Shown here piece after piece: positions 57,690 through 64,000 of a DNA stretch of 64,000 nt. The notes under the pieces were generated by a model. The model did not search any database and was not told the DNA's origin. It saw only the letters and a program-made list of their open reading frames with translations. This DNA comes from Sphingomonadales bacterium (GTDB lineage Bacteria; Pseudomonadota; Alphaproteobacteria; Sphingomonadales; Sphingomonadaceae), in NCBI GenBank assembly GCA_014763545.1, contig JACXVD010000004.1, positions 1 through 64,000 on the forward strand, read 5' to 3'. Position 1 is the first letter of the stretch. Each line of letters opens with the position of its first letter. Position numbers and translations under genes: made by a program.

Positions 57690-58109
57690 TCACGTTAGCC
57701 GATCCGGCACTTCGCGAAGCAGCGTAGCAAGCTCGCGCCGCGAGGAAAGGCCGGTGGCCCGCAGGACATGCGACAGGTGATTGCGCACCGTCAGGTGCGA
57801 AATGCCGAGTTCGCGGCCGATATCCTTGTTCGAAAGCCCGCGGGCTACCGCCAAGGCAATCTCCCACTGCCGCTCGGTCACAAGGTTGCGCAATGGGCCG
57901 GCCTGCCGGCTATCGCACAGCCCCATGCCGATGAGGTCAGTCTCGCTCATCATCGGGTCCAGTTCGATACAGCTGCACGCCAGTTCCCTGATTTGGGCAA
58001 TCGCGTCCGCATCGTCGGCCATCACCACGAACAGGCGCGACTTCCGTGCGGCCCGCCCCCTGTTCGAGCAGGCCGCGACCTTGGCCACCGGCTTGGCAAA
58101 GTGCTGCAT
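57690..58109 (-). CDS. LuxR-family transcriptional regulator
   Basis: The 139-residue protein ends in a GerE/LuxR HTH (TERQWEIALAVARGLSNKDIGRELGISHLTVRNHLSHVLRATGLSSRREL), beginning near residue 77. The N-terminal 70 residues (MQHFAKPVAKV, then a DDADAIAQIRELACSC part) are too short for a receiver or autoinducer domain. It follows the DUF4386 gene by 7 nt, so the two form an operon. Confidence 0.8.
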   Translation of the reverse strand: MQHFAKPVAKVAACSNRGRAARKSRLFVVMADDADAIAQIRELACSCIELDPMMSETDLIGMGLCDSRQAGPLRNLVTERQWEIALAVARGLSNKDIGRELGISHLTVRNHLSHVLRATGLSSRRELATLLREVPDRLT

Positions 58110-58116
58110 CGCGCCG

Positions 58117-58800
58117 CTACGCCTCACCCTTGCCAACGCCAGCGCGCATGCCGAACACCATCAGCCACAGCGCCAGGGCCAGTTCGCCCAGCAAGGTCGG
58201 CAGGGTGAAATAGTCCGGCAGCTGCACCGCCCATTGCGGCGCGCCGAGCCAGGCGAGGCTGTTGACGAGGTTGCACGCCCCCGCCGCAGCAACCAGCAGG
58301 GCGACGATCGCGGGCATCAGGCGGCCGGACCAGATCAGCCAGCCCAGCAGCAGACAATAGACCCCGAAGAAGACGAGGCTGATCTTGTAGCCATCCCCAT
58401 GGAGCCGGATCAGCAGATAGACGGTTTCGGCGAGCGAGGGGGAAGCCAGCGCCGGGTCGCTGAGCCGCAGGATCATCGCCAGGACGATGGTCGCGCACGC
58501 CAGCACCGCAATCCCGATCAGGCTGAAGGCGGCGGCGATCGCGGACAGCCCCGGGGAGGCGCGGCGAAACAGCCGGAACAGGAGCACGGTCACCACCACA
58601 TAGCAGGCCAGCATCGCCAGATCGGCCAGCAGGCCGAGCCGGAAGGTGGTTTCGGCCTGGAATACGGCGCCTGCGGTGGCGGCAGCATCGCCGCGCACGA
58701 ACAGCGCCCCGCGCGCGATGACTTCGGCATAGACCCCGAAGGCGATCGTCGCGAGATAGGTCAGCCCGGCAAGCCGCGCCTCGCCAGAACGCCGCTTCAC
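58117..58800 (-). CDS. DUF4386 membrane protein
   Basis: The 227-residue protein has six membrane segments and family motifs RLAGLTYLATIAFGVYAEV, SPSLAETVYLLIRLHGDGYKISLVFFGVYCLLLGWLI and ALWLMVFG. The function is unknown. The start at GTG 58800 has GGAAG about 10 nt upstream and begins VKRRSGEARLAG; earlier starts add 69 unlike residues. It pairs with a LuxR-type regulator. Confidence 0.78.
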   Translation of the reverse strand: MKRRSGEARLAGLTYLATIAFGVYAEVIARGALFVRGDAAATAGAVFQAETTFRLGLLADLAMLACYVVVTVLLFRLFRRASPGLSAIAAAFSLIGIAVLACATIVLAMILRLSDPALASPSLAETVYLLIRLHGDGYKISLVFFGVYCLLLGWLIWSGRLMPAIVALLVAAAGACNLVNSLAWLGAPQWAVQLPDYFTLPTLLGELALALWLMVFGMRAGVGKGEA

Positions 58801-59027
58801 CGCAATATACTTCCGGCACCGGACAGGCCGAGGATCGGGAGGGGGAAATTTTCGAGCGTAACCATCGAATGATGCCTCATGTCGCGAGCGCTGCCGGGCT
58901 GCGGTTTCCGGCAGTCGGTTGATCGGTTGATCTGATGCGGTGATCGATGGCAGTCTTGACAGGCGCGGTCCGGTCGATTTGGAAATCGGCGATAGTTTTT
59001 TCGGCATGTTTGCGAGGCAAATTCGTC

Positions 59028-60014
59028 ATGGGGTCGATTGTGCAGCTCGGCGCGAGCCCGGGGGATTCCGGCCCGGCCAAGGGCGATCCGGTCGCGCTCT
59101 ATGGCGCGGCCTTCGTCTGTGCCTCGCTCGCATTCTGTCTCAACTCGCTGCTTGCCTCGCGCCTGGGTGCGGTCGGCAGTCTGCTGGCGGTAATCGGAAA
59201 CGCGACCTGCGGCTGGTCATGGCTGGCGACGCGTGCGCTGTTCCGGCGCGAGGAAGGGCGCCATGCCCTGTGGCCGCTCGGCGCCGTCCTGCTGGTCATG
59301 GCCGCATCTGCCGCCGGTTCCTTCGTGTCGATGGACGACATGCCGCGGCGGATGCTCGACAATCTGGCGAGCCTGGGCAGTTCGGCGATGCTGCTGCTCG
59401 CGGTGGCCGAACCGCTGCTCGACCTGAAGGCGCAGACCGATCCGGCAGAACGGCAATTCCGCATCATCTATGCTGCGGCCTATCTGGCGATCCTGGGTAT
59501 CGGAGTGCTGGCGGTCGATGGCGCGCCGCCTGAATCGATCGCGGCGCGGTTGAGCCTGCCGGTCAAGGTGGCCTGCGTCTTCATCGCCATCGGCGGATAC
59601 GGCCTGGCGCTGAGCCACCGCAAGCAGCATCCGCTGCAAGCGCGCGCCAACAAACCGTCGCGCAAACCGGCCGCCGCCGATTTCGCGCTGGGTGAGCAAG
59701 TCACCCGGCTCCTGTGCGAAAACCAGCTCTACACCGAAGCGGACTTGCGCGTGGCCGATCTGGCGAAGCTGACCGGAGAACCCGAATACAAGGTCACCCA
59801 GTGCATCACCGGGGCACTCGGCTTTGCCAATTTCAACCAGATGGTGAACAGCTATCGCATCGCCGAGGCCAAGCGGCGACTGCGCGATCCGGACCATGCG
59901 CACCTGCCGATCCTGACGATTGCGCTGGACTGCGGCTTTGGTTCGATCGGGCCGTTCAACCGGGCGTTCAAGGCCGATACCGGCATGACGCCCCAGATCT
60001 ATCGCCGACAGTAA
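59028..60014 (+). CDS. AraC-family regulator with an N-terminal membrane domain
   Basis: The 328-residue protein has about six hydrophobic helices in residues 20-215. A linker (NKPSRKPAAADFALGEQ) and a C-terminal AraC HTH follow (about 245-328: LRVADLAKLTGEPEYKVTQCI; LPILTIALDCGFGSIGPFNRAFKADTGMTPQIYRR). Such proteins are read as membrane-bound sensors that bind DNA directly. It is the only regulator with a clear DNA-binding domain beside the cluster of exported proteins that follows. The start at 59028 has GAGG about 10 nt upstream. Confidence 0.82.
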   Translation: MGSIVQLGASPGDSGPAKGDPVALYGAAFVCASLAFCLNSLLASRLGAVGSLLAVIGNATCGWSWLATRALFRREEGRHALWPLGAVLLVMAASAAGSFVSMDDMPRRMLDNLASLGSSAMLLLAVAEPLLDLKAQTDPAERQFRIIYAAAYLAILGIGVLAVDGAPPESIAARLSLPVKVACVFIAIGGYGLALSHRKQHPLQARANKPSRKPAAADFALGEQVTRLLCENQLYTEADLRVADLAKLTGEPEYKVTQCITGALGFANFNQMVNSYRIAEAKRRLRDPDHAHLPILTIALDCGFGSIGPFNRAFKADTGMTPQIYRRQ

Positions 60015-60043: not shown

Positions 60044-60550
60044 CTAGATAGCGGGCAGCGTCGAGACCGAAACCGATTCCGCACGGCCATGCCGGAACCA
60101 GACATAGACCGTGTAGGACTTGTTCCTGCCGCACCCGACATCGTCGGACTGCAAATATCCCGCATCGGCATCTTCGGAATCGGTCCAGTAACGGGTGGTC
60201 AGCTTGGTGCTGCGCCAGATCTTGCGCGCGGCGCTTTCCTGCGCCTCGCCGCGAACGATGCCGAAGGGGCCAGGGCTGCGCGCACCGGCGCGCAGTTTCA
60301 CCACCTTGTCGATCACCACGCCATTTTCGATCAGATAGTCGATCTGCCGCCCCTGGCTGGTTATCGAGAAGCGGCATTCACCCTTGAGCGGGTTGCGGGC
60401 GCTGCACTCTCCGGGCCGGTAATTGCGCGGCATCGCTTTCAGCGTCGAACAGATCGCCAGCCCGCCGAAATCGCTGGCGGGCGCAGCCATCGCCGGCCCC
60501 GCAAACAGCGAGATGATGATTCCGGCCGTCACGGCCCGCACAGGCTTCAT
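60044..60550 (-). CDS. Exported protein, unknown
   Basis: The 168-residue protein has a signal peptide (MKPVRAVTAGIIISLFAGPAMA) and five cysteines in the mature part (LAICST, GECSARN, GECRFS, VGCGRN). A YTVYVWFRHGRAESVSVST strand ends it. I recognise no family. About 94 bp upstream of the ATG lies a GTACTGGTAC palindrome, with a -10-like TAATCC (60610-60605) 33 nt downstream of it. Confidence 0.65.
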   Translation of the reverse strand: MKPVRAVTAGIIISLFAGPAMAAPASDFGGLAICSTLKAMPRNYRPGECSARNPLKGECRFSITSQGRQIDYLIENGVVIDKVVKLRAGARSPGPFGIVRGEAQESAARKIWRSTKLTTRYWTDSEDADAGYLQSDDVGCGRNKSYTVYVWFRHGRAESVSVSTLPAI

Positions 60551-60643
60551 TGTTCAAACTCCGATCCGGGCGCGCCGATGACAATGCCCGCGTTCTTGCC
60601 CCGGGGATTAGGGCAAGGGCACCGGGAAAACACATCCGCCGGG

Positions 60644-60653
60644 GTACTGGTAC
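60644..60653. promoter_or_regulatory. GTACTGGTAC palindrome upstream of the 60044-60550 gene
   Basis: This imperfect 10-bp dyad lies 33 nt upstream of TAATCC (60610-60605) on the minus strand. That would place it near -50 relative to a start site around 60597, a class-I activator position. The gene start is 94 bp further. Confidence 0.5.
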
Positions 60654-60719
60654 GCCTGCGCGCAACGATCCGCCATCTTGCCGCGACATGCGACGTCACC
60701 GGCGCAGGGGAGGCGCGGT

Positions 60720-60729
60720 GTACCGGTAT
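60720..60729. promoter_or_regulatory. Second GTACCGGTAT palindrome in the same gap
   Basis: This 10-bp near-palindrome lies 76 bp from the first. No -10-like hexamer sits at the 33-nt spacing. It could be an accessory site for the 60044-60550 gene. Confidence 0.4.
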
Positions 60730-60907
60730 CGCGCGCCTGTCGCGCAGTGTGCGGCGAAGGTGTTAGCCCTTGGCCGACCAGCCGGGAACGATATGCCTTC
60801 GGGTCGCGAAGGAGGCACGGCGTGGAGGGCGGCACGATGCAGTGCCTCCCCACGCCTGCCATGCTCCGATGATACCAGCTTGCGCGGGATCACCGCGCGG
60901 ACAGCCC

Positions 60908-61360
60908 CTATTGCTTGGCGTCAGACGCCGCAGGCATGGGTTCGTAGCTTTCGCTGGTAAAGCCGCTCGACTGCTGGGCGATCAATCTCCGGCCACGGCA
61001 TTCATAGGTGTGCGCTTCCCACGTCGCGCGATATTCGATTTGCCCGAGGTCCGGGCGCGGCCAGCCGTTCACATACCAGATGCGGGCTGCATATCGCGCA
61101 CGGCCACGGCCGAGATCTTCGACGCCTGCGCTGATCGGTTCGATACTGACGGTTTGCCGACTGCCATCTTCCGCCAGCGTTTCAGGCTTGGCCATCTGCG
61201 CGTCCTCGGCCGCCCGATCGCGCAGATAGGCCGCGCAGGCGCTGGCGCTCGCCATCTCTTCCTCGCGCGGCGGCATCGACACGGTCCCGCTTGCACTCGC
61301 CAGCGACGGAGACAGCAGGAGCGCGGCACAGAGGGGTGGGAACAGCCAATTCACGCGCAC
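60908..61360 (-). CDS. Exported protein, unknown
   Basis: The 150-residue protein has a signal peptide (LCAALLLSPSLASA). A mature domain with SACAAYLRDRAAEDAQ, RYAARIWYVNGWPRPDLGQIEYRATWEAHTYECRG and SYEPMPA follows. The two cysteines may pair. The start is GTG 61360, or the in-frame GTG 61354, which has GGGAG 9 nt upstream. I recognise no family. A perfect GTACCGGTAC palindrome lies 65 bp upstream. Confidence 0.6.
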   Translation of the reverse strand: MRVNWLFPPLCAALLLSPSLASASGTVSMPPREEEMASASACAAYLRDRAAEDAQMAKPETLAEDGSRQTVSIEPISAGVEDLGRGRARYAARIWYVNGWPRPDLGQIEYRATWEAHTYECRGRRLIAQQSSGFTSESYEPMPAASDAKQ

Positions 61361-61422
61361 GGACTCCCAGCATTTTCGTCATGGCATGCTAGCCCCCGCA
61401 CCGCGCCATGTCGCACCGGCTG

Positions 61423-61436
61423 GCGTACCGGTACGC
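61423..61436. promoter_or_regulatory. GCGTACCGGTACGC perfect palindrome upstream of the 60908-61360 gene
   Basis: A 14-bp perfect dyad; its GTACCGGTAC core (61425-61434) lies 33 nt upstream of a -10-like TAGCAT (61391-61386). The geometry equals that at 60644 and is within one base of that at 63255. It also lies downstream of the kinase gene stop by chance of layout, but orientation points to the exported-protein gene. Confidence 0.6.
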
Positions 61437-61488
61437 TTGGCGGTGAAGGGTCGGGGGCGGTGCAGGTCGGTGGGGCTGGAACGGCCGG

Positions 61489-62616
61489 TCAGGCGACCCG
61501 CCAGGGCAGTTCCAGCGACACGCGGAACCGGCCATCGGCAACCGGCCCCGACTGGATCAGGCAATCCTCGCCGAAGCGTGCATGCAAGCGGTCACCGACA
61601 TTGCGCAGGCCAACCCCGACCCCCGCCGGTCGCGCCACCGGCACGTCGGCGCCGGGCGTGTCGTTCTCGATCGCGATGCACAGGCGGTCGCCCCGGCGGA
61701 AACCCTTCAGGCTGATGCCGACCGTGCCGCGCGTGGTCCCCACGCCGTGCTTGATCGCGTTTTCGATCAGCGGCTGGAGGATCAGGCTCGGCACCAGCAC
61801 CTGTGCCGCATCCTCTTCGATGTCGATGGTGAAGTTCATCCGGTCCGAAAACCGCTCGCGCTCGATGCCGAGATATTCCTCCTGCAGGGCGATCTCTTCG
61901 GCGAACGGCACATCGTTGAACGGATCGAGCGCCAGCGTCGTGCGCAGGAAGGTCGAAAGCGACAACACCATGCGCTCCGCCTGCGTAGCCGCGCCCTCCT
62001 CGATCAATCCGGCGATCGAATTGAGCGTGTTGAACAGGAAATGCGGATTGATCTGGTATCGTAGCGCGCGCATCTGCGCCCCCAGCGCCTCTTCACGGAT
62101 CGCCGCCAGTCGCTGCTTGCGGCCGTTGAGTTCGAAGGCGAACAGCAGCATCACGAACAGGCACGACCAGCCGAACAGGAACCCCCAGGAAATGGCGACC
62201 AGCCCGCCGAAATTGTCGAGCGAGTTGGGGGCCGGCGGTGGAGTGCCGAGCAGGTGGGGATAGAATTTGTGCGCGCCTGCCCAAACCGCCGCCGCCGCGA
62301 GCGACAGGACGAAGGAGGCAATGATCAATATCGGGAGGGATTCTTCCGATGTCCGCACCTTCGTCGATCGTTCGTGGATCAGATAGAGCGCATACGAGAT
62401 GATCGCCGACAGGAGGATGATCGAGACGAATTGAACCAGCCGCAAGACGATGAAGTTGACCGAGATTTCATCGACCGAGGACAGAAAGCCGAAAACGATG
62501 ATGACCAGGGTGAACAGGTAGAACGCACCGAACCTCAGCGTCGCAACCTTGATGCCCTTGAGATTGGTCGGACCGTTCCTGAATTCCTGCTCAAGAACCA
62601 TGTCGTCGATTGTCAT
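61489..62616 (-). CDS. LytS/His_kinase-family sensor kinase
   Basis: The 375-residue protein has four membrane helices (about 28-50, 57-80, 95-115, 140-165). A His_kinase region follows (LRYQINPHFLFNTLNSIAGLI, His in the NPHFLFN box near residue 193) and an ATPase domain (LQPLIENAIKHGVG, GVGVGLRNVGDRL). Such kinases normally phosphorylate a LytTR regulator, but none is adjacent. Downstream is an unrelated exported protein. It follows the DUF4189 gene by 43 bp on the same strand. Confidence 0.85.
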   Translation of the reverse strand: MTIDDMVLEQEFRNGPTNLKGIKVATLRFGAFYLFTLVIIVFGFLSSVDEISVNFIVLRLVQFVSIILLSAIISYALYLIHERSTKVRTSEESLPILIIASFVLSLAAAAVWAGAHKFYPHLLGTPPPAPNSLDNFGGLVAISWGFLFGWSCLFVMLLFAFELNGRKQRLAAIREEALGAQMRALRYQINPHFLFNTLNSIAGLIEEGAATQAERMVLSLSTFLRTTLALDPFNDVPFAEEIALQEEYLGIERERFSDRMNFTIDIEEDAAQVLVPSLILQPLIENAIKHGVGTTRGTVGISLKGFRRGDRLCIAIENDTPGADVPVARPAGVGVGLRNVGDRLHARFGEDCLIQSGPVADGRFRVSLELPWRVA

Positions 62617-62659
62617 GCATGCCTCCCCCCTGAAGGCGCGCCACCTGCAAGGTACTGTG

Positions 62660-63172
62660 TCAGCGTACTCGCTCGGGGTAACTGCATCCAGAATAATAGA
62701 TTTTGCAATCCGCCGCCCGCTCCGAACAATTTGCGAGGGCTAGCTGCTCGGCCTGCCCAATCTCCGGTGCGGACACCGTGTTGCTTCCCTTCTGCCCCCA
62801 CGCCAGCGCGATGCACTGGTCATAATAGGATTGCCGGATCGTGCAGCTCGCCCCACCGGCATCGCGGCTGCATTGCGCCAGGGCTTCCGCGATTGCCTGG
62901 CGCTCGGTCGGCCAGTTGAACGAATAGCCGAAGGCACCGTTGGTGGTGGCCACCGCCCCCCAGCGGGTTTCCCATTGCGGCGGAGGTTGCCCGGCTCCAT
63001 CGTCGCCGTCACCGCCCATCGGCGCGCAGCCCTGCCAGCCTGCATTGCCGCCACCGATGGGGAAATAACCGTCAGGGCACCCCCCTTCGGCCCGCGTCGG
63101 CCCGGCATGGAACAGCGCCATGGCGGCCAGCACGGCGACAGTCGCTGCGGCCCAGGCAAGGCGTTGTTTCAT
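62660..63172 (-). CDS. DUF4189 exported protein
   Basis: The 170-residue protein has a signal peptide ending GPTRA|EGG. An N-terminal Gly/Cys-rich segment (GGCPDGYFPIGGGNAGWQGC) and a C-terminal DUF4189 domain follow: WGAVATTNGAFGYSF, ALAQCSRDAGGASC, CIALAWGQ, ALANCSERAADCKIYYSGCSYP. The domain's function is unknown. Paired cysteines suggest disulfides in the periplasm. The start ATG 63172 has GAGGT about 8 nt upstream. A GTACCGGTAC palindrome lies 83 bp upstream. Confidence 0.85.
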   Translation of the reverse strand: MKQRLAWAAATVAVLAAMALFHAGPTRAEGGCPDGYFPIGGGNAGWQGCAPMGGDGDDGAGQPPPQWETRWGAVATTNGAFGYSFNWPTERQAIAEALAQCSRDAGGASCTIRQSYYDQCIALAWGQKGSNTVSAPEIGQAEQLALANCSERAADCKIYYSGCSYPERVR

Positions 63173-63254
63173 CGGGGGCTACCTCGCGAAATCGGATCGG
63201 TTGCGGAATCCCGCATTCTGGCGTGCCGCGCGCAGCCGGTACAGGGCGGTCTGA

Positions 63255-63264
63255 GTACCGGTAC
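63255..63264. promoter_or_regulatory. GTACCGGTAC palindrome upstream of the DUF4189 gene
   Basis: A perfect 10-bp dyad in the gap 63173-63317, 34 nt upstream of a -10-like CAGAAT (63220-63215) on the minus strand. A further half-site TGTACCGG (63245-63238, minus strand) lies 9 bp toward the gene. Confidence 0.55.
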
Positions 63265-63317: not shown

Positions 63318-64000
63318 CTATCTGCGCCAGCGGATATCTTCCTCCAGTCGCCAGCAATTGCCGACCGGCCGGAACAACAACTGCCCGTCGGCATCGGGGT
63401 GTTCGCCGGGCGCAAGCGGCCTGCCATCCGCGCCGATGATATTGCCGAGATCGTCACCCCCGCTCGATTGGCCATCGTAATGCACCCGCGCCCACTCGAC
63501 CGAGAAATCGTCGGATTGGCTCTGGTTGAACTGGAGGTCGAGATATTCCTCTTCGTCGCCCGCCTTCAGGGGCTTGGCGGGCTTGTAGTAGTAATCGACC
63601 TGGGTGACCGGGAAATCGGTGTAGTCGGCGATGGGCACCTGCCGCGCCGCGATCTCCTTGCCCCCGGGGCCGAGCAGGCTGACCGCGATTGTCGGGGCGC
63701 TGTATTGACGCAGCACCACCGGCGAGATGGCCATGGCCGTGAACAATTCGTTGAAATCGCGATTGTCGCATGCCCGCTTCGCCATTTCGAGCGCGTTGCG
63801 ATCATATTCGGTCAGCGCCTGCGCCGCGCGCGCGGCGGGCGTGCCAAGGGGGGCGGGCGTGGTGGCCGCCAGTTCGACCGGGGCAATCGATTGCGGCAAG
63901 GCCTGGCGAGCATCGGCGCCGGTCGCTCCGTCGCAGGCGGCCAGCGGCGCGACAACCATGGCACAAACGGCAAATGCATGCGTGGCAGACCTGGGCGGCA
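63318..64000 (-). CDS. Lipoprotein, unknown (5' end probably beyond the window)
   Basis: The ATG at 63959 would give 213 residues, but the frame stays open to the window edge. The upstream residues (PPRSATHAFAVCA) complete a lipoprotein signal whose lipobox is PLAA|C. The real start is probably past 64000. The mature part has KRACDNRDFNELFTAMAISPVVLRQYS, YYYKPAKPLKAGDEEEYLDLQF and a Cys in GNCWRLEEDIRW. I recognise no family. It precedes the DUF4189 gene by 145 bp, the gap that holds the palindrome at 63255. Confidence 0.6.
   Translation of the reverse strand, partial: PPRSATHAFAVCAMVVAPLAACDGATGADARQALPQSIAPVELAATTPAPLGTPAARAAQALTEYDRNALEMAKRACDNRDFNELFTAMAISPVVLRQYSAPTIAVSLLGPGGKEIAARQVPIADYTDFPVTQVDYYYKPAKPLKAGDEEEYLDLQFNQSQSDDFSVEWARVHYDGQSSGGDDLGNIIGADGRPLAPGEHPDADGQLLFRPVGNCWRLEEDIRWRR

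Follow-up and report, generated by a model that had tools for sequence, protein, structure and literature searches.

The palindrome GTACYGGTAY, found upstream of a group of small exported-protein genes, is probably the operator of a dimeric activator with a GerE-type DNA-binding domain, centred near -51 of the promoters that it would serve. In this genome the activator is likely to be a small LuxR protein whose amount would be set by a neighbouring LytTR pair, and we hold this reading as a whole to be fairly probable. The computational analysis establishes the site, its spacing, the promoter elements, the relatives of the island that carries it and, in part of the genomes, the co-occurrence.

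Occurrence of the palindrome and promoter geometry

The window, that is, the whole 64,000-nucleotide stretch analysed (C102:1-64000 of a 3.07 Mb draft genome), contains GTACYGGTAY at exactly four positions, 60644, 60720, 61425 and 63255, and nowhere else in the 64 kb, as an earlier note on this DNA had reported. Chance expectation is 0.03, and the largest count in 100 dinucleotide shuffles was 1. All four copies are intergenic when checked against the gene list. The minus-strand -10-like hexamers which the note had described are exact (TAATCC and TAGCAT at 33 nt from 60644 and 61425, CAGAAT at 34 nt from 63255), and the distances to the start codons, 93, 64 and 82 nt respectively, agree with the note. 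The copy at 60720 does carry the motif, but its outer C is broken (GTACCGGTAT) and there is no -10 towards its gene, which makes it doubtful.

Genome-wide scans were pattern searches, and these placed GTACYGGTAY at 12 places, five of them within 3.4 kb at the window end. The remaining seven are a tandem pair on C10, upstream of one exported-protein gene, one copy on C6, in the 3' end of glmS and shortly before an exported-protein gene, and four that lie singly within genes. Random scatter of the palindrome elsewhere in the genome was not seen, and copies with a single mismatch lie nearly all in genes, without a -10. The composite pattern GTACYRGTNC-N33/34-TA has seven matches in the 3.07 Mb: four in this cluster (two from the single site 64068), one each at C10 and C6, and one inside a gene. 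Site 64068 (contig numbering) is the fifth perfect copy, 68 nt past the window end, and had not been seen by the author of the earlier note. Its -10s, TAGAAT at 34 nt and, in the divergent direction, TAGTTT at 33 nt, make it an out-of-sample confirmation of the spacing.

GTACYGGTAY is one form of a wider operator, GNACYRGTNC, with CG, CA/TG or TA at the centre; in promoters aligned on TA, RY flanks lengthen the dyad to RYGNACYRGTNCRY. The observed and expected numbers of GTACCGGTAC with at most one mismatch were 8 and 0.6 in the Novosphingobium island L043, 7 and 1.4 in L046, 4 and 1.1 in L048 and 3 and 0.45 in L044, with only 1 against 0.85 expected in Methylosinus L047. The Methylocystis loci appeared motif-free at first, the exact motif being missing, but this was dropped once the motif, relaxed to GTACCGGTNC, was found there.

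The spacing recurs well beyond the window. Among 27 nonredundant sites, part of which the motif itself had led to, TA stands at +33/+34 in 18 of 54 flanks, compared with a mean of 2.3 for any two neighbouring offsets and a maximum of 13 for neighbouring offsets in 1000 shuffle runs. At independent loci, picked by protein homology (63318 family, regulators) and not by motif, the figure is 17 of 38 flanks with 1.5 expected (p 1.5e-14). As a negative control, 15 palindromes in relatives, all inside ORFs, gave TA at 33/34 in none of 30 flanks. TA at 33/34 accompanies 39 of 79 sites with a YR centre versus 4 of 52 with other centres, and 38 of 74 with G..C as outer bases versus 2 of 20 with others. 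About half, 38 of 82, of the occurrences of GNACYRGTNC have no -10 at 33/34, and a similar number is expected by chance from rough base composition; good-looking sites without a clear -10 are L043:4510, 8098, 8122 and 11763 and contig 67208.

Forty-four promoters were aligned after selection by TA, which leaves just the counts for the -35 and the flanks independent of it: TTG stands exactly 23 nt upstream of TA in nine of them (a 17-bp spacer), and T.G does so in 13, with 3.0 expected (p 4e-6). Judged by these elements (a -10, a -35, a spacer of ~17 bp and a site upstream of the -35), the promoters are ordinary sigma-70-type ones, and since TTG lies 23 nt upstream of TA the dyad is centred near -51.

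At six or more sites, both flanks carry a -10 at 33 or 34 nt (64068 and its orthologue L043:6778, L046:18132 with its M. iwaonis counterpart, L047:16564, L142:6944 and L115:7503), and most of these stand between divergent genes. A symmetric dimer would explain such an arrangement simply. Palindromes are common operators, and activation at these sites is itself a prediction from sequence, so the dyad might instead be a repressor site or a nucleoid or DNA-structure element. We regard that as improbable: a repressor site should overlap the promoter and differ in position from one gene to the next, whereas here, at dozens of promoters, a gap of 10-11 nt separates the site from the -35 and one of 33-34 nt separates it from the -10; these -35 and -10 elements are weak. 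The recurrence of the spacing in homology-chosen loci supports the earlier proposal of one activator-like site with equal promoter geometry.

The accessory island and its exported proteins

The sites belong to an accessory island which runs past the window and adjoins an integrase gene; no tRNA gene was found in the island stretch searched. Its features are collected in Table 1.

Table 1. Predicted operators, promoter elements and genes of the cluster and the adjoining part of the contig
Feature	Position	Strand	Evidence or relative
Predicted operator of gene 60044-60550, gene strand GTACCAGTAC	60644..60653	-	motif search
-10 TAATCC, 33 nt from operator 60644	60605..60610	-	
Doubtful second copy, gene strand ATACCGGTAC; outer base broken, no -10 at 33/34 towards gene	60720..60729	-	
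Small exported protein, no Pfam family	60044..60550	-	orthologue L043:14595-15101, 68% over 150 aa (Novosphingobium island)
Predicted operator of gene 60908-61360, GTACCGGTAC	61425..61434	-	motif search
-10 TAGCAT, 33 nt from operator 61425	61386..61391	-	
Small exported protein, no Pfam family	60908..61360	-	orthologue L043:13020-13463, 58%
Predicted operator of gene 62660-63172, possibly also of downstream kinase, GTACCGGTAC	63255..63264	-	
-10 CAGAAT, 34 nt from operator 63255	63215..63220	-	
Exported DUF4189 protein	62660..63172	-	PF13827, 1e-16
Orphan membrane histidine kinase	61489..62616	-	PF06580 + HATPase_c
Exported protein, lipobox-like LAAC, predicted NTF2-like fold	63318..63959	-	operator contig 64068-64077, past window end
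GerE-domain protein (small LuxR)	contig 67257-67682	-	PF00196, 3.9e-16
His_kinase	contig 67937-69058	divergent from small luxR	
LytTR response regulator	contig 69055-69828	divergent from small luxR	
Phage-type integrase	contig 70049-71701		
Second small GerE protein	57690-58136		
DUF4386 membrane protein	58117-59007		
AraC-type membrane protein	58947-60014		

Islands of the same kind lie on plasmids of Methylocystis parvus, Methylosinus sp. C49 and, more distantly, M. iwaonis. Where the stretch is long enough, their common parts are luxR, a kinase with LytTR and numerous small exported proteins; several of the islands have DUF4189. The orphan kinase has relatives at 79% in Novosphingobium (L043), at 75% in a Methylocystaceae genome (L044) and on plasmids; those at 79% and 74-75% were seen only in related islands and plasmids, and over its last 235 residues it is 69% identical to the second kinase of the island. 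Islands of this kind are rare: a search of 397 other genomes of the order did not detect protein 60044-60550, and it was absent from the plasmids searched. A search for the regulon through that protein was unproductive, and one through the 63318 family was productive.

In the Novosphingobium island the site is kept upstream of the orthologous genes, so that gene 60908 corresponds to site L043:12939, gene 62660 to L043:8098/8122 and gene 63318 to L043:6778; L043:12939 has its -10 at 34 nt. Its conservation at these genes speaks for the note's proposal. A regulon of unrelated small exported proteins is likewise supported, but the description of it as local fails: related sites precede related genes on plasmids, in other genera and at unlinked chromosomal places. 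As to the envelope response that the note had proposed, the proteins are indeed predicted to be exported, but the response itself was a guess.

The structure model of the 63318 family predicts an NTF2-like fold, with ~90 residues at pLDDT >=90; its best Foldseek matches have E values of 1e-5 to 1e-3 and low TM-scores. Outside the island, the candidate members are the C10 gene with its two tandem operators, the C6 gene downstream of glmS and a gene on C24, which may belong to the regulon, although as single cases they may also be due to chance. The C10 operators, at C10:37199 and 37215 (L014:7200 and 7216), are perfect and 16 bp apart, and the distal one has TATCAC at 34 nt; the exported-protein gene contains an RLACYD motif and adjoins a TonB-dependent receptor gene.

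Several further observations concern the relatives. On pMpar-2 of Methylocystis parvus (L046:15445-17363), copies of the 63318, DUF4189 and orphan-kinase genes lie in pieces beside an IS110 transposase gene. Genomes G160 and G362 (L115, L116, L140) have larger chromosomal clusters of exported proteins (DUF4189-like, LprI-like, 63318-like) together with a NarL-type regulator and a kinase, and most operators of G362 have TA at the centre (GNACTAGTNC). A copy of the site also lies just past the 3' end of luxR, at L013:12208 (contig 67208), L046:23504, L048:10509, L064:8246, L066:6380 and L062:193; in L063-L066 the copy beyond that end has a -10 towards luxR, as for an antisense or very small transcript.

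Candidate regulators of the sites

The earlier note had pointed to the membrane AraC-type protein or to LytTR regulators as possible binders. The AraC-type gene does adjoin the cluster, yet its control of the sites is very improbable. Its 66% orthologue in G136 lies in a locus with DUF4386 and a second GerE protein, where the only copy, GNACCGGTNC, has no -10 at 33/34. The Novosphingobium and Methylocystis islands have the sites, yet no orthologue turned up in the stretches of them that were compared; in those stretches the regulator gene does not travel with the sites.

Two other genes, the island small luxR and lytTR, are both present in every island with enough sequence. In one reading, the adjacent kinase or the orphan one phosphorylates the LytTR regulator, which then binds the palindrome and activates the genes. 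It is encoded in five of five islands, its kinases are the nearest signalling genes, and ACCGGT resembles some LytTR half-sites, such as that of AlgR, CCGTTCGTC (PMC4064291). LytTR proteins, however, are described as binding direct repeats of 8-9 bp some 20 bp apart (PMC6193735, PMC11347149), an arrangement unlike one dyad flanked left and right by equal promoters. In front of the exported-protein genes the operator is a lone dyad, with no repeat consistently kept at +20 to +22; a second LytTR half-site at +21/22 was considered and discarded, being present only at 63255 and not at the other sites or orthologous promoters.

Repeats of LytTR type have another location: in five of five islands, the divergent intergenic region that separates luxR from the kinase or lytTR gene holds GCCRTTC direct repeats 20-21 bp apart. 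Elsewhere LytTR-like repeats occur singly in a few places (L138, L140, L116, L047, L048). In addition, G160 and G362 keep sites with the same spacing but lack the island LytTR subfamily (best 35-42%; other compared genomes carry LytTR paralogues at about 33-42%), while in about 17 kb of the Phyllobacterium and Ensifer loci with a 56-58% LytTR no GNACYRGTNC site is accompanied by a -10 at 33/34. Binding of the palindrome by the LytTR regulator is consequently unlikely.

G160 and G362 carry a NarL-type response regulator, full length in alignment (L115, L116), with a related kinase (42-46%). G343, with a 63318-family gene, has neither regulator and no site. G153 has sites, but at the thresholds used the search for the three regulator subfamilies returned no member there. 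A GerE-domain protein fits best as the binder, an assignment resting on the two site-bearing genomes without that LytTR and on the symmetry of the site.

The small LuxR encoded at 67257-67682 has a GerE domain, and its PDB matches are NarL, GerE and DegU, the best being the NarL-DNA complex 1je8 at 38% identity (Foldseek). Ahead of this domain, by alignment and model, it retains only beta1-alpha1-beta2 of a receiver; there is no Response_reg match and the phospho-acceptor Asp is absent, and hence the usual control by phosphorylation is not expected. It also has no Pfam autoinducer-binding domain such as LuxR quorum-sensing receptors have. The helix segment SHFTVRNH is common to all island LuxR proteins, while the rest diverges.

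The genome encodes other GerE proteins, for example that at 57690-58136. This gene forms a module with DUF4386 and AraC (57690-60014) which is also present in G136 (L114), without sites having a -10. Its similar helix, SHLTVRNH, and the sites of G153 leave some room for another GerE regulator of this kind at the sites in this genome. That this is so seems to us unlikely: the 57690 type belongs to the module just described, which G136 has without such sites, and every site-rich island has the 67257 type.

The mechanism that we propose is then as follows. A dimeric activator with a GerE (NarL/FixJ-type) domain would bind the palindrome, whose end lies 33-34 nt from the -10 of a sigma-70-type promoter, and its dyad symmetry would allow two divergent promoters to be switched on at once. 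The small LuxR, with its GerE domain behind the first third of a receiver without the phosphorylatable aspartate, is the likely activator here. Its amount would be set by the divergent kinase-LytTR pair, through the LytTR-type repeats between the genes; LytTR would set the expression of luxR and the kinase, and LuxR would act on the exported-protein promoters. In G160 and G362 the same kind of site would be served by a NarL-type response regulator of full length, paired with its own kinase. As targets we predict the small exported proteins that this accessory island, found again on plasmids, encodes.

Comparison with known systems

No description of a DUF4189 regulon or of this operator was found in the papers searched. 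The operator and its regulon are real and, as far as those papers show, previously undescribed, though of a known general kind, with a predicted GerE-domain activator. They provide a precise operator and promoter architecture for exported proteins so far called 'hypothetical' or DUF (DUF4189 and others) in two orders of Alphaproteobacteria, and searches with the operator can bring up further members and help tie them to one signal. We also see here a case of a two-component output domain freed from phosphorylation, apparently under a second two-component system. More tentatively, the island may be a horizontally moving cassette whose NarL-type regulator, having lost its phosphorylatable receiver, turned into a dose-controlled, LytTR-governed activator; the cassette would carry an exported-protein regulon between alphaproteobacterial orders and capture chromosomal genes of its hosts (C10, C6, C24) through new 10-14 bp operators.

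Response regulators of the NarL/FixJ (GerE) family bind short inverted-repeat operators upstream of sigma-70 promoters. The island protein shares the GerE helix-turn-helix domain of NarL, VraR and LiaR (Pfam 4e-16), but lacks most of the receiver, including the phospho-acceptor, and unlike their operators the island operator RYGNACYRGTNCRY has no spacer between its half-sites. The same DNA-binding domain is found in EL222, the GerE light regulator of Erythrobacter litoralis, whose operator consists of short, GNCY-like 5-bp motifs (RGNCYWWRGNCY, PMC10521638). EL222 has a LOV sensor domain where the island protein has a truncated receiver, and its motifs are separated by WW whereas the island half-sites abut.

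With the LytTR systems AlgR, CoxC and HdrR, the islands share the His_kinase/LytTR pair and direct repeats near 20-21 bp; the spacing for CoxC is 18-21 bp (PMC11347149), and the GCCRTTC repeats are similar to the AlgR motif CCGTTCGTC (PMC4064291). In the islands, however, the repeats precede luxR and the kinase (or lytTR) rather than the exported-protein genes. What is unusual is the arrangement on mobile islands, in which a receiver-truncated putative activator apparently stands under a LytTR system.
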